Positions 12,751 to 39,112 of a stretch of 39,112 bases of DNA are shown piece after piece; within the stretch, counting starts at the first letter, position 1; each line of letters starts with the position of its first letter. The DNA is from Magnetococcales bacterium (GTDB lineage: Bacteria > Pseudomonadota > Magnetococcia > Magnetococcales > JADFZT01). Under the pieces are notes generated by a model, which worked only from the letters and a program-made list of their open reading frames with translations, was not told where the DNA came from and ran no database searches. A program made the translations under genes and the position numbers. Location: positions 1-39,112 of the forward strand of contig JADFZT010000045.1 of assembly GCA_015232395.1 (NCBI GenBank), written 5' to 3'.

Positions 12751-12852
12751 GTTTATTAATGGAATGGGTAATCAGTTGTGTCGCCACTCATCCAAATCGG
12801 CAAAATTTTGCTTTTAAACAAAGAAGTTCGTCCTCATGGAGGGGACACATTC

Positions 12853-22005: not shown

Positions 22006-22677
22006 GTGAAAAAAGCTAACATATCATCGGTATATGGTCTTATCTTGGCCGCGTTGGTGGCAGGATGTACCGTCAACCCCTATTCCGGCGAGAAACAGGT
22101 TGGCAAGGCGGCGTATGGCGCGGGTATTGGGGCGGCCAGCGGCGCTCTTATCGGCATGTTGACCGGTGATGATAGTCGAGAGAAACGCAACCACGCCTTG
22201 ATCGGCGCCGGCGTTGGCGCCTTGGCCGGGGCCGGGGCCGGATATTACATGGATGTGCAAGAGGCCAAACTTCGTCAACGCCTGCAAGCCTCAGGGGTGG
22301 GCGTAACGCGAGTCGGCGATGAAATAGTCCTGAATATGCCGGGAAACATCACCTTTGATTCCGGCTCAGCTTCCGTCAAATCAAACTTCTATGAAGTGTT
22401 GAACTCGGTCGTTTTGGTGTTTAAGGAGTATCCCAAAAGCTTGGTGGATATCTTTGGGCACACCGACAGTACCGGTTCAAGTCAGATGAACCAGCAACTC
22501 TCTGAAAATCGAGCCGCCAGTGTTGGTCAATATTTCATCACTCAAGGCGTGATCAACAGACGGATTGCCACCAAGGGATTTGGCGAAAGATACCCTGTGA
22601 CCACTAACGATACCCCCGAAGGCCGCAGCGCCAATCGAAGGGTTGAAATCCGCATCAGTCCTCTCACTTCCACATAA
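22006..22677 (+). CDS. OmpA-family lipoprotein (YiaD-like)
   Basis: 223 residues from a GTG preceded by GGAG. The signal peptide ends with a lipobox (LAALVAGCTVNP). A glycine-zipper region follows (about 33-75: AAYGAGIGAASGALIGM, HALIGAGVGALAGAGAGYYMD), able to insert in or lie along a membrane. The C-terminal OmpA/Pal domain (about 110-220) shows FDSGSASVKSNFYEVL, VDIFGHTDSTGSSQMNQQLSENRA and GFGERYPVTTNDTPEGRSANRRVEI, which bind peptidoglycan. The order lipobox, glycine zipper, OmpA matches YiaD-type proteins. It is the first of three short envelope genes on this strand. Confidence 0.92.
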   Translation: MKKANISSVYGLILAALVAGCTVNPYSGEKQVGKAAYGAGIGAASGALIGMLTGDDSREKRNHALIGAGVGALAGAGAGYYMDVQEAKLRQRLQASGVGVTRVGDEIVLNMPGNITFDSGSASVKSNFYEVLNSVVLVFKEYPKSLVDIFGHTDSTGSSQMNQQLSENRAASVGQYFITQGVINRRIATKGFGERYPVTTNDTPEGRSANRRVEIRISPLTST

Positions 22678-22685
22678 AACCCGGC

Positions 22686-22707
22686 TTTTTGAAATGCAGT
22701 TCAAAAA
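22686..22707. repeat. AT-rich inverted repeat after the OmpA-like gene
   Basis: TTTTTGAA, six bases and TTCAAAAA form a perfect 8-bp inverted repeat beginning nine bases after the stop codon and ending 28 bases before the next ATG. It has low GC, so it is a weak terminator at best. It could be an operator for the following gene. Confidence 0.4.
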
Positions 22708-22735
22708 TGCGCTGACTCTTGTCCAAGGTGAACAG

Positions 22736-23062
22736 ATGAATTTTATTCGAGTGCTGTTGTTAATTCTCCTTGCCGGTCTCTATCTATCCTCTCCGGTTTA
22801 TGCTGACCCGAGTTGGTCGGAACGGATGCGCGGGGCTTGGGAGCGGATTAAGAATATCGGCGATGGAGGCGTGGGCGCCGCTGAAGTGGTTTCCGGGGAA
22901 AAAAACTTCCCTGCCAACTCTGAAGAGTCAGGTAAAAACGGCCATGGAAACAATAATCGCGGTAAAGGCTGGGAGCGGGCCAAAGAGGTTGGCGGCAAGG
23001 CCAGGGGCAGTGAACGGTCCCGACATAGTCGTGAAAATGGTGAGAAAAGCTGGAAAAAATAG
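22736..23062 (+). CDS. Small secreted basic protein, unknown function
   Basis: 108 residues from ATG at 22736, chosen because AAGGTG precedes it and a clean signal peptide follows (MNFIRVLLLILLAGLYLSSPVYADPS). The mature part is hydrophilic, rich in G, N, K, R, S and E (GKNGHGNNNRGKGWERAKEVGGKARGSERSRHSRENGEKSWKK) and probably disordered. It lies between two OmpA-family genes, so a periplasmic or surface role is likely. No family is recognised. Confidence 0.6.
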   Translation: MNFIRVLLLILLAGLYLSSPVYADPSWSERMRGAWERIKNIGDGGVGAAEVVSGEKNFPANSEESGKNGHGNNNRGKGWERAKEVGGKARGSERSRHSRENGEKSWKK

Positions 23063-23128
23063 AAACAACATTAACGATAGATGACCATTTGAAGCTTCTC
23101 AATCAACCAGAACATACAAGGACAAAAA

Positions 23129-24094
23129 ATGAAACTATTGAAGCTATCGGGAGTCGCCTTGTTAGCATTGACTCTTGGCGGGTGCGTTCTTTCCACTCCG
23201 AGAGAAAACCATGGCGAATACAAAGGTTATGTGCAGTGGCATCCACAGTCCGGCAAGCACTCTGTCGCCAGCGCCGGCACCCAATGTTACTTCTGCCCAG
23301 TCAGCGTAAAGGTTATGGACAGCGATGGCGACGGCGTATTGGACCCGGATGATCGATGCCCCGACACGCCCAGGGGCGTAAAAGTATCGCCCGACGGATG
23401 CCCGCTCGATTCCGATGGCGACGGGGTTCACGATGGGATTGACCGTTGTCCAGATACGCCCAGTGGCATCACAGTTGACGCCAAAGGGTGTCAACTCGAT
23501 TCCGATGGCGATGGCGTCTTTGACGTCAATGACCGGTGTCCCAATACGCCCAGTGGCGCCGAAGTAGACCGCAACGGCTGTATTCCGGACGAAGATGGCG
23601 ATGGCGTTCCAAACAACAAGGACCGCTGCCCGGGAACGCCGCCAAACCTGAAAGTCAATCCTGACGGCTGTCCGCTGGATACCGATGGCGACGGCGTGAT
23701 TGACGCCAATGACAAATGTCCGGGAACGCCAAGTGGAGCCACTGTCGATGTCCAGGGGTGCTGGGTGCTCAAGGATCTCAATTTTGACGTCAGTCGCGCT
23801 ACGATCAAGGGTGGAGGGAGAGAGATTCTTGACAACGCCGCAAACGTTCTCAGAAAAAATCCTCAACTCAAGGTGGAAATTCTGGGACATACCGACTCCA
23901 CCGGATCTGACGCCTTCAATCAGAGGCTTTCGGAGCAACGGGCCAAAACGGTCTTTAATGCTCTGGTAGCACGAGGCGTTTCCCCTGATCGCCTGGTTAC
24001 CAGGGGGTATAGCGAAAGCAAGCCGATTACCAGCAACAAAACCCGAAGCGGTCGCGCCATAAACCGTCGGGTTCAGATGAATCTTATACCGTAA
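23129..24094 (+). CDS. OmpA-family lipoprotein with thrombospondin type 3 repeats
   Basis: 321 residues. The lipobox LGGC (cysteine 19) follows a short hydrophobic signal. Residues about 65-205 contain five calcium-binding TSP3 units of the type DSDGDGV-D--DRCPDTP, each closing with a G-C pair. The OmpA/Pal domain (about 212-321) includes ILGHTDSTGSDAFNQRLSEQRA and RGYSESKPITSNKTRSGRAINRRVQM, which bind peptidoglycan. Such proteins link outer membrane and cell wall. Near the N-terminus a CYFCPVSVKVMD segment leads into the repeats. The gene is followed by a strong terminator. Confidence 0.93.
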   Translation: MKLLKLSGVALLALTLGGCVLSTPRENHGEYKGYVQWHPQSGKHSVASAGTQCYFCPVSVKVMDSDGDGVLDPDDRCPDTPRGVKVSPDGCPLDSDGDGVHDGIDRCPDTPSGITVDAKGCQLDSDGDGVFDVNDRCPNTPSGAEVDRNGCIPDEDGDGVPNNKDRCPGTPPNLKVNPDGCPLDTDGDGVIDANDKCPGTPSGATVDVQGCWVLKDLNFDVSRATIKGGGREILDNAANVLRKNPQLKVEILGHTDSTGSDAFNQRLSEQRAKTVFNALVARGVSPDRLVTRGYSESKPITSNKTRSGRAINRRVQMNLIP

Positions 24095-24151: not shown

Positions 24152-24335
24152 GAGACATGTAAATCAGGGACCAGACAGGTAGGCGGTTATGAATGGCGAA
24201 CTGACTCTTCAAATCCAATTATAATATGTCCGTCTCCCAAGAGCGTTACGATGCCATGCGGTATTGCGATGTTGTCCGAGTCGTTATACGGAATCTCGAT
24301 TCCAGCCAAGACAACCCCATAAGGAGAGTAAAAAT

Positions 24336-25235
24336 ATGCCAATCAAAATCGAAGGTCCTGGAACCACGGAAACCTTAGCCACTGAAACGGATGTTTTGAT
24401 TGATTTTGTCAGTGAACTCGCACGGTCAAACCGCCGATATTCCGAGTGGTGGGCTGATCTCAACAAGTTAATTATTTTTGGCGAAGAGAAATGCGGCGTT
24501 TCCCAAAAACACGCTGACAAATGCGATCTCTGCCGGTTTCTTGCTGAGGTGACTGATTCCGATATCAGAGACTCCATCCCTTTCAAGAGACTCTGTGCCC
24601 AACACAAGAGGGTTCACGACATGGCGGCGGATTTTTTGCGGCGCCGTGAGACGGGCGTTGTAACGGTCGCTGATTATGAACGCCTGAAAAATATCGGCAT
24701 GAAACATCTGTACAACATGGACCAGATCAAGCACTCCAGCTTTTTTTCCATCGCGCATACGGATAACCTGACGGGGCTTTTAACCCGGGACGTGATGGAA
24801 GACGCCCTTAAGGAACAGGACGATCGGGGGAGACGGTTAGGCCAGCGTTTCTGCGTCGCTCTGGCCGATCTCGACCATTTCAAAAGGATCAATGATACAT
24901 ACGGGCATCAAGTCGGGGACACCGTCCTGGTAGAGATTGCGCGAATTTTCGAGGTTTTCCTCCGACCCTATGACGATGCGTTTCGGTATGGTGGCGAGGA
25001 GTTTCTGGTCCTGCTTCCCGAAACCACTATTAATAAGGCGGTCAACGTGATGGATCGTCTACGTGAAGAGGTGAAAACGAAGGTGATATGCGCAGATGAA
25101 CACAAGATCTCAATGACAATTTCGGTTGGAATTTCGGAGTCTTCTCCCGGCCAGGATATTGAAGCCTTGATTAGCACAGCGGATGAAAACCTCTACAAGG
25201 CAAAGTCGGGAGGGAGAGATCGAGTTGTTTGTTAA
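24336..25235 (+). CDS. Diguanylate cyclase with N-terminal CZB-like zinc domain
   Basis: 299 residues from ATG at 24336 with AAGGAGAG upstream. The N-terminal region (about 18-110) has the helical pattern and His/Cys residues of chemoreceptor zinc-binding (CZB) domains (KHADKCDLCRFL, CAQHKRVHDMAADFL). The GGDEF domain (about 140-299) has DNLTGLLTRDVMEDAL, FCVALADLDHFKRINDTYGHQVGDTVL, the catalytic GGEEF at residues 219-223 and an intact RPYD inhibitory site at 210-213, five residues upstream of it. It should make cyclic di-GMP under zinc control, as in E. coli DgcZ. It is the last host gene before the defence island. Confidence 0.9.
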   Translation: MPIKIEGPGTTETLATETDVLIDFVSELARSNRRYSEWWADLNKLIIFGEEKCGVSQKHADKCDLCRFLAEVTDSDIRDSIPFKRLCAQHKRVHDMAADFLRRRETGVVTVADYERLKNIGMKHLYNMDQIKHSSFFSIAHTDNLTGLLTRDVMEDALKEQDDRGRRLGQRFCVALADLDHFKRINDTYGHQVGDTVLVEIARIFEVFLRPYDDAFRYGGEEFLVLLPETTINKAVNVMDRLREEVKTKVICADEHKISMTISVGISESSPGQDIEALISTADENLYKAKSGGRDRVVC

Positions 25236-25718: not shown

Positions 25719-25958
25719 ATGGCTAGAGGATCCAGTGGTAGGATCGTCATCGAGCTTGATCCTGCATTGAAGGGCAGGCTTTATCACGAGCTTGAGCGCG
25801 ACGGACTGACGCTTAAGGATTGGTTTGTGCTTCAAACGCAGGAGTACCTTCAACAACGTGATCCCCAACGAATTCTTCAATTGGGCGGGCCCACGCAGGG
25901 GCAACAGGGGCGGACAAATGAATCGTTCCGCTCTACTGGTATCCGCTTTCGAGCCTAG
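25719..25958 (+). CDS. Small ribbon-helix-helix (Arc/CopG-like) protein, first gene of the ssp operon
   Basis: 79 residues from ATG at 25719, preceded by GGAGGAGG ten bases upstream. The sequence GRIVIELDPALKGRLYHELERDGLTLKDWFVLQTQEYL has the ribbon-helix-helix pattern: a short beta strand, then two helices with a conserved G-T/S turn. A Gln-rich and Arg-rich tail follows. Such proteins bind palindromic operators as dimers of dimers, and a perfect palindrome lies just upstream. The 3' end overlaps the sspB start by 41 bases, and the sspB ribosome-binding site lies inside this gene, so the two are co-transcribed. A role as operon regulator is inferred. An antitoxin-like role is an alternative but no toxin gene is seen. 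Confidence 0.65.
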   Translation: MARGSSGRIVIELDPALKGRLYHELERDGLTLKDWFVLQTQEYLQQRDPQRILQLGGPTQGQQGRTNESFRSTGIRFRA

Positions 25959-26856
25959 CCGGATCGCATTTGGCCGGCATGAGACATTCCCTCTTCGCTA
26001 CAGTTGGCTGACCAAAGGGTTTCAGGCCCTGCTCGAGGATCCGGGCGTGTTCTCATCAGACGAGGCCACGGTAACCCTGGGTGTGGGGAAGAACATGGTC
26101 AACTCGATCCGCTACTGGTTGCGCGCCATGCGGATGATGGATGCCAAGGACAACGCCCCCACGTCTCTCGGCCGGAAGCTCCTTGCTGAGGATGGATATG
26201 ATCCCTACCTCGAAGATGAGGCAACGATCTGGCTGTTGCACTGGCTGCACGCCACCAATCCTGAGCAAGCAACCACCGCCTACTGGCTCTTCAACCGCTT
26301 CCACAAGCCCACATTTGCCTCAGAAGAGGCCGTGAGCGCCTTGGTGACGTTCGTGAAGGAGAACGTCACCGGGAAATACTCAATCAATACCGTGAAACAG
26401 GATATCGCGGTTATTCTGCGGATGTATGCGCCAAGCCGGAAGGCGACCAAGGTCGCCATGGAAGATGCCCTTGACTCTCCACTGGCTGCGCTGCGCCTGA
26501 TCACGAGACAGGAGATTCAAAGGGGCTTCATTTCGTATCCAGAAGCACGATCCAGCCTGCCAGTCGAGATTGTCGGTTATGCGATCACAGAGCTGCTTCG
26601 ATTCCATGGAGAACGGGCCATCCAGTTCCAGGAACTGATGTATGGCAGATTCGGACAGCTGGCGCTGGGCAGCATTTTTCGCCTGAGTGAAACCGCGTTG
26701 TTGACCATTCTGGAACAGCTGGTCGTCAAGTACCACAAGCACTACGAGATCCGTGAAACAGCTGGCGTTCATCAACTGTATCAGCTTGATGATGTGAACC
26801 CAGGCATGTTCCTGGACCGTCATTTCGGGCAACATGCCGGGAAGGTCGCGGCATGA
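25918..26856 (+). CDS. sspB: SspB-like DUF4007 protein (DNA phosphorothioation nickase)
   Basis: 312 residues from ATG at 25918 with GGGGCGG upstream. An upstream ATG at 25825 would lie inside the RHH gene and adds unrelated residues. The N-terminal FGRHETFPLRYSWLTKGFQAL and GVGKNMVNSIRYWLRAMRMM are the signature of DUF4007, with a winged-helix look. This family is the SspB component of the single-strand phosphorothioation system, reported to nick DNA so that sulfur can be introduced. The end overlaps sspC by four bases (ATGA), so translation is coupled. The family assignment is firm. The catalytic role is by analogy with characterised SspB. Confidence 0.85.
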   Translation: MNRSALLVSAFEPSRIAFGRHETFPLRYSWLTKGFQALLEDPGVFSSDEATVTLGVGKNMVNSIRYWLRAMRMMDAKDNAPTSLGRKLLAEDGYDPYLEDEATIWLLHWLHATNPEQATTAYWLFNRFHKPTFASEEAVSALVTFVKENVTGKYSINTVKQDIAVILRMYAPSRKATKVAMEDALDSPLAALRLITRQEIQRGFISYPEARSSLPVEIVGYAITELLRFHGERAIQFQELMYGRFGQLALGSIFRLSETALLTILEQLVVKYHKHYEIRETAGVHQLYQLDDVNPGMFLDRHFGQHAGKVAA

Positions 26857-29800
26857 GCATTTCCCACCTCATCCATATCGATACGCACTACACCCGCTCA
26901 ATCAATCTTGAGCGGGATGCCCGCTCAGCCGTAACTGTTGACTCCTATATTCCGACACCCCGGGCCAAACAAGCTCTCGAACGAATCGGTGATGCCCTCC
27001 GTGACGGGGAATCACAACGGGCCTGGGCCCTGACGGGCCCGTATGGGTCCGGCAAGTCGATATTCGCCATATTCTGCGCCCACCTGCTCGGTGATCCAAG
27101 CGAGGAAACGACCCAGACCGCCTTGGGAGTCTTGGATGAAGAGCCAGAGTTGGCGAAGGTGTTCCGCGATCATGCCAAAGCTGGAAAGGGATTTTGCCCG
27201 GTGCTGATCACCGGCGCCCCGGAGCCATTGGGGAGCCGCTATTTGAATGCGCTCGCGGACTCGGCTGAGCGGTACTGGAGCAATCGCAGGGGTCGACTGC
27301 CACGGATCGTGACCGAGCTGAAAGAGCTTGCTGATGGAAGTGCCGAAATCGGCATCAGCCAGCTTGTTTCCCTGACATCTCAGCTGCAGAACGCTGTGGC
27401 GAACAGCGGAGGGCATGGCCTCCTGGTCGTTTTCGATGAGCTGGGCAAGTTCCTGGAGTACGAGGCCCGGCACTATGGAGCCAATGACATCTATTTGCTC
27501 CAGGCCCTGGCCGAGCACGCTTATGCAGGCGGCAAAGGGAAATTGCTGCTCATGGCGCTGCTCCACCAGGCGTTTGACCAGTATGCGCGCGGCCTTGGAG
27601 ACAAGCTGCGGAACGAGTGGGCCAAGGTTCAAGGGCGGTATGAGAGCATTCCCTTTCTGGAGCCTGCTGAACAGGTTATGCGGGTTGCAGCGCTGGCCTT
27701 CGAGCCGAAACTGCAAAATGCTGACAAGAAACAAATTGAGAAGGCCGTAAAGGCATTCATTGTCTCAGCAGCCAAAGACAAATGCCTGCCTGGCGGGCTT
27801 GACGAAAAAGACGCTGAGAAGCTCTTTGCCCGCTGTTATCCGTTACATCCGCTTGCCCTCATGCTTCTGCCCGTGCTGTGCCAGAAAGTCGCCCAGAACG
27901 AACGTACGCTGTTCAGCTACCTTGGCAGCCAGGAACCCCATGGTCTCAGGCAGAGTATTGAGCGCCTCACCGCCGTTGGGGAGTGGGTCTATCCGGCAGA
28001 AGTCTACGACTATTTTATCCAGAACCAATCCTCTTCAATCTTCGATCATGTGACACACCGGCGCTGGGCAGAGGTGGTGACGGCGCTCGACCGTCTTGGC
28101 GATGCCTCCGAAGATGAGGTTTGCCTCGTCAAGACCATCGGGCTGCTCAATATCATTGGAGCCCACGGTGCGCTGAAGGCATCCAAAGGGCTTCTTTCTC
28201 ACTGTTTGCCGACACCTGAACGGGTACAGGAAGCCTTGGCAGTTCTGGAGGCCAAAGCGATCATCCAGTTTCGCCACTATAGCGGCGAGTACCGGGTATG
28301 GCAGGGTAGCGATTTTGACCTGGAAGGCGCGCTTGAGGATGCCCGGAATCAGGTTGGACGGATTGAACTGGCAGAGTCCCTCAACAAGCGTCGCGCCGTG
28401 CCGCCGGTAATTGCGCGGCGGCATTCCATACAATCAGGCACGGTCCGCTTCTTTCAACCGGTCTTTGTGGATTCTGATTCTTACCAGAACCAAGAATCAC
28501 ATGTCCAATCTCCTCGGATCGTTTTCTATCTGTCCGAGGGTGAAGAGGTCGGTTCACCTTTGGAGCAGACTGTTGCCCGGCACTTCCCAGGCCATGACCT
28601 GGTTGCCATTTGCCCTATTGGCGCACGGCTCCGTGAGGCTGTGACGGATGTCATCGCCCTGGTCCGTGTGCGCTCGGAGCGCCAGGAGTTGAATTCAGAC
28701 CCGGTGGCAAGCCGTGAGGTCAAGGACTCATTGGCCGCTGCTCAACGTATTGAAGAGCAATTGGTCGATTCGCTGCTTGAGCACCCCGAAGATTGCCGTT
28801 GGTACTGGGGCGGGAAGCTCCAGGAAATTGGCGGCAAACGGGATCTGCAGCAGTGCCTGTCAGCAGTTATGGGAGAGCTGTACCATGCATCCCCAGTGGT
28901 AAAAAACGAGCTGATCAATCGTGACAAGATATCCAGCCAGGCAGCGGCGGCTCGCAACAAGTTGCTCAACGCGCTGCTGTCAAACGCCGACCAGGAAGAC
29001 CTTGGGATTGAGAAGTACCCCCCCGAGAAGGCCATTTACCGCTCTCTGTTCCTTGCAACGGGGATGCATGGTCAAGACGCTGACGGCTCCTGGAGGCTGT
29101 CGCCTCCGAGTGCCGACGATCCTTATCGCTTCAGCCCTGTGTGGAAACGCATCGATGAGTTCTATTCAGAGAGCGAGTCAACCCCGACGTCGTTTGATGA
29201 CCTTGGCAAAGCTCTGACTGCGCCGCCATTCGGCCTGAAACAAGGCGTCCTGCCTGTTCTGTATATCGCATCGTATCTGACGCGACAGCATGAGGTGGCG
29301 CTGTATGAGGAACGGGGCTATATCCCTTATCTGACCGAGGATCTTCTGGAGCGCTTCGTTAGACGCCCAGAGGCGTTCCAGGTGCAACTATTCCGCATCA
29401 CCGGCATGCGGGCATCCATCTACCAGGAGTACGGCAAGGCGTTATGGGGTACTGCGGAGCATGGCCGGTCCATACTGGCGATCGCAAAACCGTTGATGCA
29501 ATTCATGCAGGACCTGCCCCTGTATGTTCAAACCACGAAGCGACTTTCTGACGTGACGTTGAAGGTGCGGAAGGCTTTCCAACTCAAAAAGTCACCGGAG
29601 GAGATGTTGTTCGAGTTGTTGCCGGCGGCCTGTGGCTATCCTCCTCTCGATCCAGATGATGATACCCAGGGGGAGCGTCTCTCGGACTTCGCCGTTGCTC
29701 TCACGGAGGCATTGCGGGAACTCAAGGGGGCCCTGCCGGCTCTTCTGGAGGAGCAACACAGGCTTTTGGCGAATGCTTTCAAACTTAACAAGGATTCGGA

Positions 29801-30356
29801 CCTGGAATCTATGCGCGCCACGTTGCGGGCTCGTAGCGAGGGGCTGGAAAACTTCACCGTTGATACTGATGGGTTGCGGGCGTTCATCATGCGGTTGATC
29901 AACCGCAAAGGCAGCGATGCCGAATGGCTGAACGGCCTCCTGCTTTTCCTCGGGCGAAAACCTGTCGAGAAGTGGACAGATGCTGACCGTACAAACGCTG
30001 AGTACCGGTTAAGTGAGTTCAGTGGACGCTGGCGTGACCTGGAGATGCTTCGTGTTCAGTACGACAGGAACGCGCCGAAGAAGGATGGCGATTTTGAAGT
30101 GGCCCTGCTGCGCATGGTGCGGCAAGGGGTGGGCGAACAGGATCGTGTTGTGGTGGTCACTCCTGGCGCCAAGCAGGCTACAGCGGCTGCGACGGAACAG
30201 TTGGCTAAAGTCCTGGGCGAACTAGATGAAGAACTCCGGATTGTGGCTCTGGCCGAAGTCCTTAACGGCGAACTCTTCTCTGATGACCTTTGTGGTGATA
30301 TTCTCGACCCTACGGAAAAACCTCATGTCAAGAAGACGGGCAAGAAATCATCGTGA
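26853..30356 (+). CDS. sspC: SspC-like large ATPase of the phosphorothioation system
   Basis: 1167 residues. A Walker A motif GPYGSGKS is at residues 62-69 and a Walker B segment LLVVFDELGKF is near 190, in an N-terminal AAA/STAND-type ATPase domain. The long remainder has no recognised catalytic motif and is largely helical. The gene sits between the DUF4007 protein and the PAPS-reductase-like protein with four-base overlaps at both ends. This is the sspBCD order, in which SspC is the ATPase required for modification. It could be involved in remodelling DNA around the nick, but that is inference. Confidence 0.8.
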   Translation: MSISHLIHIDTHYTRSINLERDARSAVTVDSYIPTPRAKQALERIGDALRDGESQRAWALTGPYGSGKSIFAIFCAHLLGDPSEETTQTALGVLDEEPELAKVFRDHAKAGKGFCPVLITGAPEPLGSRYLNALADSAERYWSNRRGRLPRIVTELKELADGSAEIGISQLVSLTSQLQNAVANSGGHGLLVVFDELGKFLEYEARHYGANDIYLLQALAEHAYAGGKGKLLLMALLHQAFDQYARGLGDKLRNEWAKVQGRYESIPFLEPAEQVMRVAALAFEPKLQNADKKQIEKAVKAFIVSAAKDKCLPGGLDEKDAEKLFARCYPLHPLALMLLPVLCQKVAQNERTLFSYLGSQEPHGLRQSIERLTAVGEWVYPAEVYDYFIQNQSSSIFDHVTHRRWAEVVTALDRLGDASEDEVCLVKTIGLLNIIGAHGALKASKGLLSHCLPTPERVQEALAVLEAKAIIQFRHYSGEYRVWQGSDFDLEGALEDARNQVGRIELAESLNKRRAVPPVIARRHSIQSGTVRFFQPVFVDSDSYQNQESHVQSPRIVFYLSEGEEVGSPLEQTVARHFPGHDLVAICPIGARLREAVTDVIALVRVRSERQELNSDPVASREVKDSLAAAQRIEEQLVDSLLEHPEDCRWYWGGKLQEIGGKRDLQQCLSAVMGELYHASPVVKNELINRDKISSQAAAARNKLLNALLSNADQEDLGIEKYPPEKAIYRSLFLATGMHGQDADGSWRLSPPSADDPYRFSPVWKRIDEFYSESESTPTSFDDLGKALTAPPFGLKQGVLPVLYIASYLTRQHEVALYEERGYIPYLTEDLLERFVRRPEAFQVQLFRITGMRASIYQEYGKALWGTAEHGRSILAIAKPLMQFMQDLPLYVQTTKRLSDVTLKVRKAFQLKKSPEEMLFELLPAACGYPPLDPDDDTQGERLSDFAVALTEALRELKGALPALLEEQHRLLANAFKLNKDSDLESMRATLRARSEGLENFTVDTDGLRAFIMRLINRKGSDAEWLNGLLLFLGRKPVEKWTDADRTNAEYRLSEFSGRWRDLEMLRVQYDRNAPKKDGDFEVALLRMVRQGVGEQDRVVVVTPGAKQATAAATEQLAKVLGELDEELRIVALAEVLNGELFSDDLCGDILDPTEKPHVKKTGKKSS

Positions 30357-31111
30357 GACACGTTTTGGGCATATCCGGGGGCAAAGATAGCGCAGCCCTG
30401 GCGATCTACCTGAAAGAGCAGGGCCGCGTGCCGGAGATGGAATATTTTTTCACCGACACTGGCGCAGAGCTGCAAGAGGTCTATGACTTCGTTGACCGTC
30501 TCGAAGCCTATCTGGGCCAGGAGATCGTTCGACTGAACAGTGGATCAGATTTTGATCATTTCTTAAAGGTCTATGGCGGTTTCCTGCCATCGGCAAGGCA
30601 GCGCTGGTGTACGCGCAAGATGAAGTTGGAACCGTTTGAGCGCTTCGTTGGAGACGATCCCGTCACTTCCTATATCGGCATCCGAGCTGACGAGGACCGG
30701 CAGGGTTACCTGAGCCACAAACCAACCATCAAGGCCGTATTCCCGTTCATTGAGGATGGCATCGTACGCGAGGACGTGTTCCGGATTCTTAAAGAAACTG
30801 TAGGCATCCCTGAGTACTACCAGTGGCGTAGTCGTTCAGGCTGCTATTTCTGCTTCTTCCAACGCCGGGATGAGTGGATAGGTCTCCATGACAGGCATCC
30901 GGACTTGTTCCGGAGAGCCATGGAGTATGAGAAGTTTAATGAGATCACTGGCGAACGCTATACCTGGATCCAGGGGCTCTCACTGGAGGAACTTGTCGAG
31001 AACCGGTCACGCATCACTTCAAAAGCCGACTGCCAGACTACGAGGTCGTGGGAAAAGAGGCTGCTTGAGGATGATGATGAAGATCAGGCGTGCCTGATCT
31101 GTAGCCTTTGA
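30353..31111 (+). CDS. sspD: SspD-like PAPS-reductase-family sulfurtransferase
   Basis: 252 residues from GTG, overlapping sspC by four bases. The ATP pyrophosphatase PP-loop SGGKDS is at residues 8-13. Cysteines are arranged as in DndC-type proteins: RQRWCTRKMK (C86), RSGCYFCFFQRRDEW (C164, C167) and a C-terminal ACLICSL pair (C247, C250), able to hold an iron-sulfur cluster. The role is to activate the DNA phosphate and transfer sulfur from a cysteine desulfurase. DndC proteins are roughly twice as long. The short form and the DUF4007 and ATPase neighbours identify SspD and not DndC. Confidence 0.85.
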   Translation: MRHVLGISGGKDSAALAIYLKEQGRVPEMEYFFTDTGAELQEVYDFVDRLEAYLGQEIVRLNSGSDFDHFLKVYGGFLPSARQRWCTRKMKLEPFERFVGDDPVTSYIGIRADEDRQGYLSHKPTIKAVFPFIEDGIVREDVFRILKETVGIPEYYQWRSRSGCYFCFFQRRDEWIGLHDRHPDLFRRAMEYEKFNEITGERYTWIQGLSLEELVENRSRITSKADCQTTRSWEKRLLEDDDEDQACLICSL

Positions 31112-31173
31112 TCGGGAGCGTACCGCAAACCGCGTAGTGAGGTTTTAGGAGTCGATTCACGTAGTTCAGGGGG

Positions 31174-32844
31174 TTGGGGCAAGAGGCATTGGAAACTTCC
31201 ATAAAATCCTTTGCGGGGAGTAGTCCGGGCCAGAGCCTCGAACAACTCGTCCAGCACATCAGCCTGGACAATCTTGGTGTTGTTCTCGGAAAGGATGTTC
31301 TGGAATTAGTTGATGCTTTGACTGGACAGTCCGACAAGCAGGCCATCGTTCGTCGCATTGCGGTAACGTTCCTCCGTGATCAAGCAGATGAGACGATGGT
31401 CAGGCCGGAAGTCCGAGCGATCTGTCTCGACGCAATATCGAAAGACAAGCTCATCGAACTCACTAAACGTATGGGCAGTTCCAGCGAGGAGGCCTTGCGT
31501 GGGCTAGATCCGTCTCTGGATGAAGAAACATGGCGTTCATTCCTGGGCTTTTTCGGGATTGATGCCCGAGCGGCGGTACCATTTGCGGCAGCATTGGATC
31601 GGGAAACAGTCCGCTCAGACTTTGGCCTTTTCCCGCATCAGCGCAAGGCAGCTGACAGTATCCTTAACGCAATCCGTGGTGGGCATGGCCGTGTGGTGCT
31701 TCACATGCCCACGGGTGCGGGCAAGACCAGAACAGCGATGCATGTGGTCAGCCGTTTCCTTGGGACCATGGAGTCCTGTGTAGTGATCTGGCTCGCCAAC
31801 AGTGCAGAACTGTTGGATCAGGCCGCTGATGCGTTCAAGGTGGCCTGGGCGCATTTGGGCAATCGGGATGTGGGGCTGTTGCGTTTATGGGGGGATCACG
31901 CGCCTGACCTGTCGGCTTTCTCTGACGGACTGGTTATTGCTGGCCTGCAGAAAATGCACGCCTTCAATACGAAGGATCCCATCGGGATCCTTCGTCTCGC
32001 AAGATCTGTCGCTCTCGTGGTCGTGGATGAAGCCCACCAGTCCATCGCACCCACCTATCGCGAGGTTATTGAGACCTTGAGCGAAACAGGTGCTCACAAT
32101 GCCCTGGTTGGATTAACTGCGACGCCAGGGCGGACATGGTCAGATATTTCGGCTGATGAGCGACTATCGGAGTTCTTTCATGGGCGCAAGGTTATGCTCG
32201 AGGTCGAGGGCTGGGACGATCCAGTCTCCTACCTCATGGCCGAAGGTTATCTCGCTCGTCCTACCTTTCACCGGCTTGAAGTCAAAGCGTCTTCCGAACT
32301 CAAGCCCCGCTTGAAGGCAGAAGCGGGTAAGGGAGATGATTACGCTACCATTTTGCTCGATAATCTGTCCGATCAGGTGGACCGCAATATCGCCATTATC
32401 GACGAGGCCCGCCGGTTGATTGCTGCGGGCCATAAGCGGATTCTTCTTTTCGGAGCGTCGGTCCGACATGCTGAAGTCCTGGCGGCGGCGTTTTCTGCGC
32501 TTGGGATTGACAGTCGCGTCGTTACAGGGAAGTCGGCGGCAAGCGCTCGCGAACGGGCCATCAAGGCTTTCCGAAAGTCTTCATCCACGCCAATAATCCT
32601 GTGTAATTTCGGGGTATTGACCACTGGCTTCGATGCGCCGAACACAAGTGCCGCTATTATTGCCCGCCCGACGCGATCATTGGTCCTGTTCAGCCAGATG
32701 GTGGGACGCGCCACACGGGGTCCAAAAGCCGGAGGCAATGAGACCTGCGAAATTTCAACGGTGGTAGATATCGATTTGCCAGGATTTGGCGATGTCGCCG
32801 ACGCGTTTACGAACTGGGAGGATGTGTGGCATGACCCAAGCTGA
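31174..32844 (+). CDS. sspF: SspF-like superfamily 2 helicase
   Basis: 556 residues. The start is uncertain: TTG at 31174 follows AGGGGG, but a later TTG at 31189 is possible. The first 140 residues have no recognised motif. The helicase core has Walker A (HMPTGAGKTRTAM, about 177-188), a DEAH box (VVDEAHQS, about 283), motif III (LTATPGRTW), and motifs V-VI near the end (TTGFDAPNTSAAIIARPTRS, MVGRATRG). Its place after sspBCD and before a GHKL ATPase and a PLD protein matches the sspFGH restriction module. SspF would drive translocation on, or unwinding of, unmodified DNA. The end overlaps sspG by 14 bases. Confidence 0.8.
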   Translation: MGQEALETSIKSFAGSSPGQSLEQLVQHISLDNLGVVLGKDVLELVDALTGQSDKQAIVRRIAVTFLRDQADETMVRPEVRAICLDAISKDKLIELTKRMGSSSEEALRGLDPSLDEETWRSFLGFFGIDARAAVPFAAALDRETVRSDFGLFPHQRKAADSILNAIRGGHGRVVLHMPTGAGKTRTAMHVVSRFLGTMESCVVIWLANSAELLDQAADAFKVAWAHLGNRDVGLLRLWGDHAPDLSAFSDGLVIAGLQKMHAFNTKDPIGILRLARSVALVVVDEAHQSIAPTYREVIETLSETGAHNALVGLTATPGRTWSDISADERLSEFFHGRKVMLEVEGWDDPVSYLMAEGYLARPTFHRLEVKASSELKPRLKAEAGKGDDYATILLDNLSDQVDRNIAIIDEARRLIAAGHKRILLFGASVRHAEVLAAAFSALGIDSRVVTGKSAASARERAIKAFRKSSSTPIILCNFGVLTTGFDAPNTSAAIIARPTRSLVLFSQMVGRATRGPKAGGNETCEISTVVDIDLPGFGDVADAFTNWEDVWHDPS

Positions 32845-34687
32845 ACAGCATGAACTCGAAGATATTGTCAGCGCCGAGATCATCCCCCTTCGTCTTGCCA
32901 TCACAGCAATGCGGGACTCCGGCTATAAAAATACTGCCTACGCCCTCGCCGAACTGATCGACAATGCGATCCAAGCGAACGCAACGACAGTCGAGGTGTT
33001 GTGCATTGAACGGAAAGAGCTTGTCTCGACGCGGGAACGGCGTCGTCTTTACAGAATGGCCGTTTTGGACAATGGCTCTGGCATGGATGCACTAACGCTT
33101 CGTAAGGCGTTGCAGTTTGGAAATGGAACTCGACTAAACGACCGCTCTGGCATCGGACGGTTCGGCATGGGTTTGCCCAATGCGTCAATCTCGCAAACAC
33201 GGAGGGTAGACGTGTGGAGTTGGCAGAACGGGCCGACCAATGCCATCCACACCTATATTGATTTAGGAGAGATTGGAAAAGGTTCAATGCGGGATGTGCC
33301 GGAACCGCAACATGAATCCGTTCCTGACGATTGGGGCCATCTATCTCAGGGGCTTGGCCAAAGCGGTACCCTTGTTGTCTGGTCTGACCTCGATCTGGAT
33401 CGGCTGACCTGGAAGAGCGCAACTCACACCCTGCACAACACGGAAAGACTTGTTGGACGGATCTATCGGCGATTCATCATGGAAGGAGTGGTTACGATCC
33501 GTCTCTTTGCCAAAGAGGAAGGAAGCGATAAGCAGCTGCATGATCGGGAAGCTGTATTTGACGATCCATTATATCTAACCTCGTCACCCGCAGTGCCTGC
33601 CCCATTCAACGATAAACCAATGTTCGAACATGTGTTCGATGACCCGCAAAAGATTGAATATGGCGGTCACGAGCATACCGTCAATATTCGCTACTCCGTC
33701 GCAACACAGGACACCATCAAAGAAGCAGGAACTCAGGACCGTGGTCGCACCAATTACGGGAAGCATGCCGCTGGCAATATCGGAGTATCCGTTCTTCGTG
33801 CAGGACGTGAGATAATGCTGGATCAGGGTTGGTGCATTGGGTATGACCCGCGCGAGCGATGGTGGGGTGCTGAAGTCGAGTTCCCACCCGCTTTGGACGA
33901 GCTTTTCGGCGTGACGAACAATAAGCAGGCAGCCACGCACTTCTCTGAGCTGGCAACGACGGAATGGGAGCAGCTTGCTGAAGAAGGTGAACAGTTCATC
34001 GACGTCGTGAACAGGCTTAAGGAAGATGGCGATCCTCGTGGCTGGCTCCTGACTGTAGCAGACAGCATCAAGCGCAACCTGGAACAGATCCGCAAAGCAC
34101 TGAAAGCACAAGGCGCGGGTCGTCGTTCAACAAGACGGAACCGGCACGGTGAAGCTGATGACGTGACGACCACTGTCAACAAAGGGTGGAAGGAACGCTC
34201 AAAGGAAAAGCCTATCGAAGGTGAGGACCAGCCGACGACAGAGCAGGACCTTGAGGAAATCCGCTCTGACCTCACAGAGAACAAGAACTATGATGAGACC
34301 GACGCCGAAGATTTGGTGTCACTGATCCAAGATGCTGATCTAAGGGTTATATTCCTCGAGGCTGATTTCACAAACGCTTATGAGTTGTTCAATGTCGAGA
34401 TGAAGGGCAATGTGACGGAGGTAACCTTCAACCGGCAGCACCCCGTCTTTGACGACATATTTGGAACAGTGGCGACGGTTGATGAGGATGTCGCCGACCT
34501 GTCCAATGAAGAGATTCTACAGCGGCTTTTAAGGGCCGTTAATGCAGCGAAGATTACCTTTGCAGCTTGGGCTCGCTATGAACGGGAGGCAGGGATTAGT
34601 CGCGCGCAGGCCTTGCAGAAGGTTCGGTTCGATTGGGGGCAGATTGCAGCGAAATTTCTCCAGCCAGAAGATGATCTCGACTTGTAG
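32831..34687 (+). CDS. sspG: SspG-like GHKL/MORC-type ATPase
   Basis: 618 residues from ATG at 32831. GHKL (HSP90, histidine kinase, MutL) motifs are clear: the N box ELIDNAIQAN (41-50), DNGSGMD (80-86) and the G2 box GIGRFGMGLPNAS (107-119). These place it with HSP90/MORC-type ATP clamps. The middle (about 250-400) includes the segment GKHAAGNIGVSVLRAGREI, as in the transducer part of such enzymes. The C-terminal third is acidic and polar (KEKPIEGEDQPTTEQDLEEI). ATP-driven clamping on DNA is plausible. The function follows from the sspFGH context. Confidence 0.8.
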   Translation: MTQAEQHELEDIVSAEIIPLRLAITAMRDSGYKNTAYALAELIDNAIQANATTVEVLCIERKELVSTRERRRLYRMAVLDNGSGMDALTLRKALQFGNGTRLNDRSGIGRFGMGLPNASISQTRRVDVWSWQNGPTNAIHTYIDLGEIGKGSMRDVPEPQHESVPDDWGHLSQGLGQSGTLVVWSDLDLDRLTWKSATHTLHNTERLVGRIYRRFIMEGVVTIRLFAKEEGSDKQLHDREAVFDDPLYLTSSPAVPAPFNDKPMFEHVFDDPQKIEYGGHEHTVNIRYSVATQDTIKEAGTQDRGRTNYGKHAAGNIGVSVLRAGREIMLDQGWCIGYDPRERWWGAEVEFPPALDELFGVTNNKQAATHFSELATTEWEQLAEEGEQFIDVVNRLKEDGDPRGWLLTVADSIKRNLEQIRKALKAQGAGRRSTRRNRHGEADDVTTTVNKGWKERSKEKPIEGEDQPTTEQDLEEIRSDLTENKNYDETDAEDLVSLIQDADLRVIFLEADFTNAYELFNVEMKGNVTEVTFNRQHPVFDDIFGTVATVDEDVADLSNEEILQRLLRAVNAAKITFAAWARYEREAGISRAQALQKVRFDWGQIAAKFLQPEDDLDL

Positions 34688-34707
34688 CGCGATCGGAGAC
34701 GCAGATC

Positions 34708-35622
34708 ATGGTTGTGGATGGAGAACGTCTGAAGACTCTCGTGAAAGGCGCACAACAGCAAGTTCTGCTCTGTGCGCCATTTATCAAGGTGGGAGCATTA
34801 CGCATGGTGCTCTCTTCAGTTGATGAAGGGGTTCAAGTTCGTATTGTCACGAGGTGGCGGGCGGCAGAAGTTGCCTCAGGTGTCAGCGACCTGGAGGTTT
34901 TTGAACTTGCCAATGAGCGCATGAACACCGAGCTGGCATTGCTCGATGATCTGCATGCCAAGCTTTATTTGGCCGATGATGAGGGCTTGGCAGGTTCCGC
35001 CAACTTGACTGCGGCCGCACTGGGTTGGGCGGAGAAGAGCAATGTCGAACTCCTCTTGCGGGTTGTTCGATCGGACGATGAGGTTGCCCGGTTATTGCGG
35101 CGTTTGAAACGTGCAGAGCCCGCCACCTACGCCATTCGCTCCGAAATTGAAGCAGCAGCAATTGCGCTCAGCGCTGCAAAACTCGATGAAGGCCAGGATA
35201 TCTCTGACGATATGGAGATCCTCCAGAACTCTGCTTGGCTCCCGAGATGTGCGGCGCCAGGACGGATCTGCGCAATTTATGAGGACTCGCAGACGACATC
35301 GGTGGTAGAGGGTACCAGAGAGGATGGGCTTGCCGACATCCGAGACCTACATATACCGGATGGTTTATCACCAACGGAATTTGCAGAGGCTGTACGCGAT
35401 ACGCTTTTATTGATGCCAGCGTTTAAACACATCATTGACCGCATCCCCCAGGGGCTAACAGACTCTGCTGGCACTACGCTTGTCACAGAAATACGCCCTG
35501 ACCTAAATCAGTCCAATGCTGCCCTTCAATGGCGCATCGTCAGGGACTGGATTTCGGTGTTTTTCCAGAGAGACTTTGAAGTCGCGCCGGACTCTTTTGT
35601 AACACGCTTACGTTCTCGATAA
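34708..35622 (+). CDS. sspH: SspH-like phospholipase D-family nuclease
   Basis: 304 residues, 20 bases after sspG. A single HKD motif of the form H-x-K-x4-D is present (H83, K85, D90 in DDLHAKLYLADDEG), followed by GSANLT. A single motif per chain means that two subunits would have to form the active site, as in Nuc or BfiI nucleases. The N-terminal half (LVKGAQQQVLLCAPFI, VQVRIVTRWRAAEV) is the usual PLD fold start. The C-terminal 150 residues show no motif. As last gene of the sspFGH module it is the best candidate for the DNA-cleaving subunit. It ends 36 bases from the convergent methyltransferase gene. Confidence 0.8.
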   Translation: MVVDGERLKTLVKGAQQQVLLCAPFIKVGALRMVLSSVDEGVQVRIVTRWRAAEVASGVSDLEVFELANERMNTELALLDDLHAKLYLADDEGLAGSANLTAAALGWAEKSNVELLLRVVRSDDEVARLLRRLKRAEPATYAIRSEIEAAAIALSAAKLDEGQDISDDMEILQNSAWLPRCAAPGRICAIYEDSQTTSVVEGTREDGLADIRDLHIPDGLSPTEFAEAVRDTLLLMPAFKHIIDRIPQGLTDSAGTTLVTEIRPDLNQSNAALQWRIVRDWISVFFQRDFEVAPDSFVTRLRSR

Positions 35623-35658: not shown

Positions 35659-38229
35659 TTATTCCAACCTTGTAAATCTGTCGATACTCACCACCTTTGG
35701 CACCATTCGTCCAGAGTTCCCTTGAAGCATCAATACAATCTGCCGGTCATGGTTTGGGCCGTAGCTGACATGAAATGATTGATGGTCTTCTCCGTAGAAA
35801 TATAACCGATCAAACGGAGTATTTCTCACCACCCACTGAGCTACTTCCAACAAGCTTTCATCCTCAACGAAAAAATCGCATGCAGCACCTAGTCGCGGAC
35901 AGATTGGATTTCCTAACCGATTGAGTTCATGAGCTGCATGTTGATCCCGCTTTGGATCAATGCGTCCTGGAATTTTTCTGGCCAACTCTGGAGAGCAGAA
36001 GCCATAGGTCAACTGAATCATCCCGAAATAATCGATCACGGGATCCAGAATATTGACTGCAAGATCATAGAGAGCGTTGTAGCTCTCCGGCTGTAATGGC
36101 AGGTTGGCAAGTCCGGTGGACGCCTGGGTCTCACCGCATTCAATAAGCTGACGGAAAGTGAGGAATTGGCCGCATGGATCGTCCAGGTCTGGAACGCTGC
36201 GTGAACGGGCCAACTCAAATCCTTCAATCATCCAGCGATGGCGCGCCAGTTGACTCAGAAAGGCGTCGGGCGCTGGCCCATATCCGGACAGGTTAATCGT
36301 TCCCAACGATTCTAACGCCTCTTCGAAAGCCAGTTGCTCTGGATAGTTCGGAAACTCCTCATTGATGTAGCGGGACTTGCGGAACAGGAATGGCGGTGCG
36401 TATGCATCACCATAGGCAAAATATTCGATATCCTGCTCCCGGAGTTTTATTTTGACCCTTTCGACCATTCGAGGAAGTGGCATTCCCTCGAAGTCGTCAT
36501 AGCGCATCAGGCTCACCTTGCCAGAGCGGATGTGAATTTTTACCAATTCAGCGTTCCGATAGTCGCCATAGAGTAAAGCAGCACACCCAACATAGACCCG
36601 TAATAGTGGTTGGAGTTGCTCTACCATGCTCACATGAAGTTGCAGTGACTCCCCTGGCTCCAACCAGCCCAGGCCACGTTCCGCCGCTTCCTCGCATGCC
36701 TGTGCGATGGCGTTGACATCTGCAATCTGAAACAATAAGGCTCGAGACTGAGCTTGGGCCGTTCCGTAGTCTCCAAAGAACTGCTTGATGTCTCGTTGTA
36801 AGCCGCGCTCCAAATGCTTGTAAGGTCGACGACGTTCAAACTGGTTCAACGCAAAATATACTTCCAAATCCGCAACCCGCATCTCAGCGGCGCACTTGAC
36901 CTCAGCACAATCTTTCCGCCCCTCCAAAAAACGTAGGGCTTTCGGGAGAGATCCAAACGCCTCCGTCAGCGCTAACAAGTCTTTCACCTCCGACTTGTCC
37001 GGTTTGCGACCAAGCGCAAGCCAATGAGTCCAAAGGCGCTCAAGCGGTTCTCGGTGGGCTTCGTATCGTTCTGCTGAGCGGTCACGACGCGGTTTCTTTA
37101 CTGTTTCCCGGGGTCGATGTGATGGAGATTGAAGCCGGTTGTGCTTGCTCCGATACCGATCCATCAGAAAGCGCTGTTCAGAATCCTTGTCACGGAATAC
37201 AAAAAGAACTCCAGGCGCTACTGGGATAGGTTCTTCATCAAGAACCTTCTCCAAAAACGCTTTAATCTCGGATTGGGTGAAGTATTTCTGGAAGGTTCCG
37301 CGTGAGGTCATCACGCCATCACGAAACCTCTCGCCACGAGGATCGTTCTGATTTGCCAGCATTACGGACACCACCAGCAGACGTTCTGCCAACGACCATG
37401 CTCTGGTCAGCGCCTCAACGCGTTCATCAAAGTCTTCAATGACGTTGATCACGAATCCCAGGTTGACTATGTCCGCTGACGCAACAGGGTTGTCCGGCGC
37501 GAAATAGGGATCCCATCCTACCGCCGATAAACCGTTCTCGATCAACCCGCGTACATCATCCCCACGCCCACAACCGTAATCAAATAACCGGTGGCGACCA
37601 TCCAAAAAACCATAGCGCGCCAGCGACTGTATTGGGGCTGAAAAACCGTAACGCACCAGGGCCGTCAGGTGTCGAGACGCCTCCCAATCGGAGTGGAGCA
37701 CTGTTGGCTCTTGTTCACATCCTTCAGTCGACTCATCGTTTCCAATCGGAACCAGAGAGTAGTCTTCGATTCTGTATCCTTTTTCACGGACCAACGCCAT
37801 CCATTGGCGGCGGTAACCAATACGCTTTGGCTCGTCGAACAACCCGATGGATTCAGCGGTACTGGTCAATTCCTCGCATCTCTGCCGAAGCGGATCACTT
37901 GGCAAAAGGAGTAACTCTTTGCGATGCAGGATTGGGGGGTTCAGAGAATCGGCATAGGTACGGTATCCCACTGTTGAACGGTCAAAATCTACCAACCAAC
38001 TTTCACGCAGCGAAGGGAACGGATCGTCGGAAAATTCTGGATAATTGAGCAGAGCAATGGAAAGGCCATCCTCATCAAATCGCACCAGATTAAAGTTCTT
38101 GTGCGGCTTGATGTTGGCCAGCCGCTCTGCTTCAGACACACGCGCCATCCACTTGGCGTCCAGCTTGGGTAAAGCATCGACATGCAAATATGTCTGACCG
38201 CCAACGACCTTTCTCGGAGCTGACTCCAT
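35659..38229 (-). CDS. DNA phosphorothioation-associated putative methyltransferase
   Basis: 856 residues. A SAM-binding motif (LFDYGCGRGDDVRGL, about residues 213-226) and DIVNLGFVINVIEDFDERVEALTRAW form a Rossmann methyltransferase domain. A long C-terminal part is unrelated to known target-recognition domains that I can name. The whole sequence matches the type annotated as phosphorothioation-associated methyltransferase, found with dnd clusters. Its substrate (DNA, RNA or protein) is unknown. It is convergent with the ssp operon, so it must have its own promoter, probably in 38230-38330. No NPPY-type amino-methyltransferase motif was found by eye. Confidence 0.78.
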   Translation of the reverse strand: MESAPRKVVGGQTYLHVDALPKLDAKWMARVSEAERLANIKPHKNFNLVRFDEDGLSIALLNYPEFSDDPFPSLRESWLVDFDRSTVGYRTYADSLNPPILHRKELLLLPSDPLRQRCEELTSTAESIGLFDEPKRIGYRRQWMALVREKGYRIEDYSLVPIGNDESTEGCEQEPTVLHSDWEASRHLTALVRYGFSAPIQSLARYGFLDGRHRLFDYGCGRGDDVRGLIENGLSAVGWDPYFAPDNPVASADIVNLGFVINVIEDFDERVEALTRAWSLAERLLVVSVMLANQNDPRGERFRDGVMTSRGTFQKYFTQSEIKAFLEKVLDEEPIPVAPGVLFVFRDKDSEQRFLMDRYRSKHNRLQSPSHRPRETVKKPRRDRSAERYEAHREPLERLWTHWLALGRKPDKSEVKDLLALTEAFGSLPKALRFLEGRKDCAEVKCAAEMRVADLEVYFALNQFERRRPYKHLERGLQRDIKQFFGDYGTAQAQSRALLFQIADVNAIAQACEEAAERGLGWLEPGESLQLHVSMVEQLQPLLRVYVGCAALLYGDYRNAELVKIHIRSGKVSLMRYDDFEGMPLPRMVERVKIKLREQDIEYFAYGDAYAPPFLFRKSRYINEEFPNYPEQLAFEEALESLGTINLSGYGPAPDAFLSQLARHRWMIEGFELARSRSVPDLDDPCGQFLTFRQLIECGETQASTGLANLPLQPESYNALYDLAVNILDPVIDYFGMIQLTYGFCSPELARKIPGRIDPKRDQHAAHELNRLGNPICPRLGAACDFFVEDESLLEVAQWVVRNTPFDRLYFYGEDHQSFHVSYGPNHDRQIVLMLQGNSGRMVPKVVSIDRFTRLE

Positions 38230-38356: not shown

Positions 38357-39112
38357 TTAAGCCGCCTCCCGGTAATAGGATCGGATAATCCCCCCGAGAG
38401 CCTCCTTGCTCCGGACCGGGCCTGTCTTTTGCGGCCTGAAATCCACGTTCAGGACGTTGTTGCCGATGCCATGGCCCTGATGCGGGCGTTCATCATGATA
38501 ATGGCGCACCCAACTCCGAGTAATGTAATCCAACTGCCTTCGGCTGAAACAGACAAAGAAATCAAGCGCTTCTCTCTTTATGGATGCCACGAAACTTTCG
38601 GAAAATGAATTCGCTTGGGGGGCTCGATGGGGGATCTGGATGATCCGGGCTCCTTCGGTTTTCCAGACCTCATCGAATGTTCCGGAGAACTTGGTGTCGG
38701 CGTCCCTGATCAGAAATCGTGGATTGATTCCCAGGTCACCGCACCACATGGCGGCATTGCGGGCCTGTTGGGTCACCCAGGCGCTGTCCGGGGAATAGGT
38801 CGATGAGCTGCAGTAGACCCGCCGGCTGCCCAGGTGGATGAAGACCAGGATGTAGGCCGTCATCTTCCCGGAGAAGGTGAAGACGTCCTTGGTGAAAAAA
38901 TCGCATGCGATGACCGATTCCAGATGAGCATGGATGAAGGTCATCCAGTCCAAAGGCGGCTTCTTCTTTTCCTTTTCAGGGCTGGGGTGGATGCCGGCCT
39001 CGGTGAGGATCCGCTTGGCGGACGTAACGCCAAGACCTGGGTTTCTGACGGGTAGACACGGAAATTTGTAAAATCCCGTTTTATAACGGGATGTTGTGCA
39101 GGTTATCCCCAC
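38357..39112 (-). CDS. Integrase-core (DDE) transposase, partial at window edge
   Basis: At least 251 residues, running off the right edge. The rve/DDE core is visible: the first Asp in VIACDFFTKDVFTF, the second in FLIRDADTKFSGTF and the Glu in NSFSESFVASIKREALDF. It ends HQGHGIGNNVLNVDFRPQ, then SKEALGGIIRSYYREAA. The part before KRILTEAGIHPSPEKEKKKP (positions 39030-39112) does not resemble a transposase N-terminus and contains a hairpin, so the 5' end may be interrupted. It belongs to the same family as the remnant at 25325 and marks the right border of the island. Confidence 0.85.
   Translation of the reverse strand: MGITCTTSRYKTGFYKFPCLPVRNPGLGVTSAKRILTEAGIHPSPEKEKKKPPLDWMTFIHAHLESVIACDFFTKDVFTFSGKMTAYILVFIHLGSRRVYCSSSTYSPDSAWVTQQARNAAMWCGDLGINPRFLIRDADTKFSGTFDEVWKTEGARIIQIPHRAPQANSFSESFVASIKREALDFFVCFSRRQLDYITRSWVRHYHDERPHQGHGIGNNVLNVDFRPQKTGPVRSKEALGGIIRSYYREAA
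39073..39092. repeat. Hairpin near the right edge, inside the transposase frame
   Basis: ATCCCGTT, loop TTAT and AACGGGAT form a perfect 8-bp stem within the region where the transposase sequence stops looking like its family. It may be the end of another element inserted there. Confidence 0.4.

Follow-up and report, generated by a model that had tools for sequence, protein, structure and literature searches.

Which restriction genes accompany a phosphorothioation (PT) module when neither sspE nor sspFGH stands beside it is the question raised by the 39,112-nucleotide stretch of Magnetococcales DNA analyzed here (the window), in which sspB, sspC and sspD are followed by three further genes on the same strand. 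Wang et al. found in 2021 neither sspE nor sspFGH beside 2,211 of 2,678 sspBCD modules and asked if the restriction partners are more diverse (PMC8092258), and the Ssp effectors named in recent papers are SspE and SspFGH only (PMC13251355, PMC12421847). We propose, with moderate confidence, that the locus encodes a PT-based restriction-modification system whose modification genes, sspBCD, are partnered by an unnamed set of three restriction genes in place of SspE or SspFGH. Our search of open-access papers found no description or name for these three genes together with SspBCD, and the locus represents a concrete and repeatedly conserved candidate partner for the sspBCD modules that lack sspE and sspFGH.

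Organization of the ssp locus

Six intact open reading frames occupy the forward strand between positions 25918 and 35622, where a complete sspBCD-sspFGH cassette had been predicted from the sequence, and the overlaps given in that prediction agree with ours. The sspBCD half of it holds, as PADLOC profile searches assign the DUF4007, ATPase and PAPS-reductase-like proteins to SspB, SspC and SspD (1e-87, 0, and 1e-104, respectively), while the sspFGH half does not, the remaining genes encoding a helicase (eHel), a GHKL ATPase (eGHKL) and a phospholipase D-like (PLD) protein (ePLD), referred to below as the triad. Two linked genes were absent from the original prediction, namely an RHH-like ORF and a convergent gene of the TIGR04096 family. 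The features of the locus are as follows.

25719-25958, + strand: RHH-like ORF, 79 aa, overlapping the start of sspB; homologues upstream of sspB elsewhere
25918-26856, + strand: sspB (DUF4007); PADLOC SspB 1.2e-87, Pfam DUF4007 1.6e-78
26853-30356, + strand: sspC (P-loop ATPase); PADLOC SspC E=0, 1363 bits
30353-31111, + strand: sspD (PAPS-reductase-like sulfurtransferase); PADLOC SspD 1.4e-104
31103-31188, no strand: putative cassette-exchange junction between modification and restriction modules, where DNA similarity to a related locus (L115) ends
31174 or 31189 (TTG starts) to 32844, + strand: eHel, SF2 helicase, 556 aa; Pfam ResIII/DEAD/Helicase_C
32831-34687, + strand: eGHKL, MORC/SMCHD1-like GHKL ATPase, 618 aa; HATPase_c_3 7.7e-20
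34708-35622, + strand: ePLD, single-HKD PLD nuclease by family, 304 aa; Pfam PLDc_2
35659-38229, - strand: TIGR04096, "DNA phosphorothioation-associated putative methyltransferase"; 585 bits against a cut-off of 150

Consecutive genes of the modification module overlap by 4 bp (sspB/sspC and sspC/sspD), the helicase and ATPase genes by 14 bp, with the ATPase ATG at 32831, and a gap of 20 bp separates the ATPase gene from the PLD gene. A search for repeats around the locus returned only chance-like matches. With SspB, SspC and SspD together in one operon, a Walker A motif (GPYGSGKS) at residue 62 of SspC, and an SspD in which the SGGKDS loop and Cys86, 164, 167, 247 and 250 are at least 97% conserved among 65 homologues, the sspBCD genes of the window are, judged by sequence, a genuine PT module. 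Homologues of the RHH-like ORF (33-54% identity) lie directly 5' of sspB in five distant genomes (L115, L114, L061, L096, and L128), whichever effector comes next, and although the protein has no match in Pfam, it is probably a regulator carried with the sspBCD subclade to which the window belongs. The TIGR04096 gene is likewise found near sspBCD whether the effector is the triad, SspFGH or SspE, and also where there is none, and would be an accessory gene, a putative methyltransferase by the title of its family only. Because both genes occur with varied effectors, they appear to be linked to the modification module and not to the triad.

As had been predicted, the window contains no sspA-like gene and no SspE. 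SspA, IscS and IscU are also missing from the assembly (99% complete, 170 contigs), and its sole desulfurase-like protein is a CsdA/SufS-like one on contig C112, below the family cut-offs; this strong class-V aminotransferase was considered as a candidate IscS and rejected on those grounds. In the search among relatives, IscS was found above cut-off in 34 of 41 genomes. An unusual Fe-S metabolism could account for the joint absence of IscS and IscU, but that the two are missing together suggests a gap in the assembly. True SspE is absent from the rest of the assembly as well, where the only GmrSD homologue found, at positions 16103-16453 of contig C28, was rejected as SspE because it is of the HEC-06/Orf5 type; it is a second putative defence gene of this genome.

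The locus might instead be a modification-only system or an inactive relic, in which the PT marks serve regulation and the triad is vestigial. The missing isc genes would fit such a state, as would the IS481-like transposase (38357-39112, - strand) that abuts the locus past the TIGR04096 gene and continues beyond the right edge of the window. Yet every reading frame is intact and all catalytic residues are present, and the isc genes being lost jointly points to the assembly instead, so that we regard a relic as very improbable.

Identity of the genes downstream of sspD

The SspFGH set of Vibrio anguillarum FF-93 is made up of a Walker-A protein, one that lacks homology to others and the FtsK/SpoIIIE-like SspH (PMC8092258), and published SspH proteins measure approximately 1,250-1,840 aa. 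That three same-strand genes follow sspBCD in the window, as the three-gene sspFGH stands beside sspBCD in FF-93, is what favors reading the locus as a canonical sspBCD-sspFGH cassette. The PADLOC models of SspF, SspG and SspH, however, match no gene of the window, even though the same models recognize their targets in the cassette of an Agrobacterium plasmid (L013) at 1e-237, 1e-219, and 0. In nine profile-profile comparisons of the triad with genuine SspF, SspG and SspH (hhalign), the probability was at most 2.8%. Sizes and domains differ as well, the third protein being a 304-aa PLD protein in which an FtsK/SpoIIIE-like C-terminus is absent. Finally, in L013 true SspFGH adjoins a helicase-GHKL pair related to that of the window, which indicates two separate modules. 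On these combined grounds we reject the canonical SspFGH identity of genes four to six, and the reading of the locus as such a cassette is hardly tenable.

The solved structures nearest to eHel are those of RadD (8e-42) and SauUSI (9e-17), and its helicase motifs are invariant in 30 of 30 homologues; a match to PbeA is weak (4e-20). eGHKL matches MORC2 in sequence (3.7e-7), and its AlphaFold model (pLDDT 85) finds SMCHD1 and MORC2 as best PDB matches, with MutL also matched. Residues E41, D44, N45, D80, G84, G109 and K365 are invariant in all 44 homologues compared, and the protein belongs with the MORC/paraMORC ATPases at the level of its GHKL motifs and of an S5-like domain with a conserved basic residue, K365. 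In the case of ePLD, modeled with a pLDDT of 93 and best matched in the PDB by SauUSI, an N-terminal single-HKD domain is followed by a helical C-terminal domain. The HxK(x)4D...GSxN motif that defines PLD/HKD nucleases is present, with H83, K85, S97, N99 and E114 invariant in 47 of 47 homologues and D90 of the HKD motif kept in 36 of the 47.

Linkage to sspBCD and exchange of restriction cassettes

When 84,980 species genomes were scanned with an alignment of the GHKL protein, 268 relatives were obtained, and the best 80 loci were fetched and scanned with HMMs built from reference loci, linkage meaning a distance within about 10 kb. Among these best 80 of 268, a helicase gene accompanied the ATPase in 77 and a PLD gene in 60, whereas genuine SspF, SspG or SspH was seen in none. 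At least one ssp gene lay within about 10 kb in 67 of the 80, in at least nine phyla, and in 45 of the 49 loci with full flanks ssp genes were near the GHKL gene. In 41 of the best 80 loci SspBCD preceded the set on the same strand; on the opposite strand it lay downstream in 21 and upstream in 5, and ssp genes and triad form downstream, convergent or divergent blocks. The gene order of the window recurs identically in Accumulibacter (L061) and in a Comamonadaceae genome (L096). Relatives on plasmids of Alphaproteobacteria, Cyanobacteria, Bacteroidota and Spirochaetota also carry helicase, ATP-binding and phospholipase D genes beside those for DUF4007, ATPase and PAPS reductase, except that in the Spirochaetota locus no PAPS-reductase gene is annotated at that place.

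An independent sample was drawn from the side of SspD, using Pseudomonadota-level relatives (398 genomes from the whole phylum and 369 from a single class within it, with some overlap), and about 20 kb were read around each of 19 SspD loci, that of the genome under study included. The triad was present in 6 of these loci (in one of them, L114, together with SspE) and SspFGH in 7, which in this small sample makes the triad about as frequent as SspFGH. The others carried PbeA/PbeC (1), SspE alone (1), or no recognized effector (4). In one of the loci examined (L111, 10330-14801), SspBCD is followed by PbeA and PbeC, a combination of ssp modification with Pbe-type genes, and in another (L109, 4705-9225) SspBCD, without a known effector, faces a convergent ORF of 1506 aa with an SspC-like N-terminal part.

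Of the 60 sets with a PLD gene, 57 had SspBCD at the same locus or SspD elsewhere in the genome, against 13 of the 20 sets without one (p=0.0018, a value that ignores relatedness). This association is supportive only, since relatedness makes the genomes non-independent and several of them are metagenome-assembled genomes (MAGs). Three PLD-bearing loci, titled as MAGs (L042, L045, and L065), have no SspD in the assembly and speak against our proposal, as do some Chloroflexi that carry a helicase-GHKL pair without ssp genes and without PLD; in that group, the genomes of L076, L078, L080 and L090 lack SspD, and the neighbors of the pair in L080 are ordinary metabolic genes. A solitary function of these pairs is possible.

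Such pairs would fit the alternative that the triad is a defence system in its own right, found beside sspBCD only because both reside in defence islands. Its occurrence in any orientation relative to sspBCD would also agree with this alternative, as would the presence of similar domains in several defence families, reflected in weak PADLOC matches of window genes to MzaB, DrmC and ZacB. Chance clustering, on the other hand, would not be expected to produce the frequencies found in full-flank and SspD loci, nor does the close, unidirectional packing of the window genes or the identical order in Accumulibacter and Comamonadaceae speak for independence, and we therefore find this alternative improbable.

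The history of the locus is one of exchange. The sspBCD genes closest to those of the window belong to L115, in the same order and with SspB, SspC and SspD 69, 68, and 85% identical, and yet the genes directly after them in L115 are true sspFGH. DNA similarity between window and L115 is 70-76% up to position 31102, at the end of sspD, and there is none beyond. The triad has its nearest relatives elsewhere: helicase, ATPase and PLD protein are 64, 68, and 57% identical to those of L017, and helicase and ATPase about 65% identical to those of L018, while SspC of L017 and L018 is only 26% identical to that of the window. Restriction cassettes have thus been exchanged downstream of one modification module. 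A quick SspC tree (86 sequences, LG+G4) requires at least six switches between triad and SspFGH, and places two pairs with different effectors as direct sisters (window/L115 and L028/L123).

The nuclease, too, appears to be exchangeable. In L047 and L070, which lack PLD, an HNH_4 protein occupies the slot before the helicase, and the helicase is short at its N-terminus (about 365 vs 540 aa); that the HNH gene directly precedes a short helicase suggests that it stands in for the N-domain of the helicase as well as for the PLD protein. A genuine SspE is found between sspD and the helicase in L054, again without PLD, and L013 carries a different predicted endonuclease. Helicase and ATPase would thus be the core of the system, and the nuclease slot its replaceable part. 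We lean slightly toward the broader view that the triad represents an undescribed and widespread class of PT-guided effectors, composed of a MORC-like clamp, a separate SF2 translocase and a nuclease that can be exchanged. Beside sspBCD this class would match SspFGH in frequency, would replace it by cassette exchange and would explain many of the "orphan" sspBCD loci.

Proposed mechanism and relation to known systems

Based on what is known of its family, SspBCD would write single-stranded PT marks on host DNA, predicted at 5'-CCA, with sulfur supplied by a desulfurase encoded elsewhere; the absence of such a donor from the assembly counts against the model. In view of the folds and motifs, the SF2 helicase may move along DNA at the expense of ATP, the MORC-like ATPase (GHKL+S5) may form dimers that clamp or loop the DNA, and cutting would fall to the single-HKD PLD protein, the putative endonuclease. 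The three proteins might form a complex that most likely destroys DNA devoid of PT, the mark on self DNA restraining it. The model is weakest on which DNA is cut and which is spared, a point drawn from analogy with SspFGH and DndFGH.

The opposite direction, in which PT marks activate the triad, as they do SspE, and the triad then degrades incoming DNA, is in our opinion unlikely. In its favor, SauUSI, the closest enzyme that combines helicase and PLD domains, is an ATP-dependent restriction enzyme that cuts modified DNA, and both the helicase and the PLD protein of the window resemble it. Furthermore, PT-activated SspE can share a locus with the triad, as in L114. Against PT-sensing, PLD-bearing sets are seldom without SspD, as expected if self-protection needs PT, and on the SspC tree the triad repeatedly replaces SspFGH, which attacks unmarked DNA (PMC8092258).

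Among known systems, SspABCD-SspFGH of V. anguillarum FF-93 (PMC8092258) has the same SspBCD, a three-gene restriction module and, probably, a shared logic of destroying DNA without the mark. None of SspF, SspG and SspH is related in sequence to the triad proteins, and the FtsK-like SspH exceeds the PLD protein four- to sixfold in length. SspABCD-SspE has the same modification module and coexists with the triad in L114, but its effector, a one-protein NTPase/HNH nickase of the GmrSD type, is activated by PT and has no counterpart in the window. The PbeABCD/CxC-DndE systems (PMC6459918, PMC10853773) also associate an HKD nuclease and an SF2 helicase with PT; in these, PbeA fuses nuclease and helicase, and the partners are an ABC ATPase and DndE instead of a MORC-like ATPase. 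Neither PbeC nor DndE was matched among the window genes scanned. SauUSI (PDB 7clg), the best solved-structure match of the PLD protein, which the helicase matches too, differs from the triad in being one polypeptide without a GHKL ATPase.

A precedent for the triad itself is the prediction by Iyer et al. in 2008 of restriction-modification operons containing MORC/paraMORC ATPases, SF2 helicases and nucleases (PMC2292703). These operons share with the window the GHKL+S5 ATPase, the SF2 helicase and a nuclease (of the HKD type in a few), and a DNA-looping model was put forward for them; they differ in being associated with DNA methylases, and neither PAPS reductases nor Dnd nor phosphorothioation come up in the text. 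The paper does name Nitrococcus mobilis and Anabaena variabilis, and loci of both carry the triad (L028 being that of N. mobilis Nb-231). A MORC-like ATPase next to a PT module makes the 2008 idea of MORC proteins as restriction factors testable in bacteria, and places a close structural relative of the eukaryotic MORC/SMCHD1 silencing ATPases beside an epigenetic mark of the DNA backbone. Given that related sspBCD modules carry SspFGH in one genome and the triad in another, one mark seems to be read by several unrelated readers, and such related modules with different restriction genes amount to a natural experiment.

As for the rest of the window, the genes that separate its left end from the ssp locus, between 12778 and 25235, include those for an ice-binding protein (12778-13590), a secretin (13851-15689), LpxR (16507-17580, - strand), OmpA-like lipoproteins (22006-24094), and a diguanylate cyclase (24264-25235). 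To their left, a phage tail tape-measure protein (1150-4698) lies among unannotated ORFs (about 1-12.7 kb) that probably represent a prophage or phage-like tail genes.
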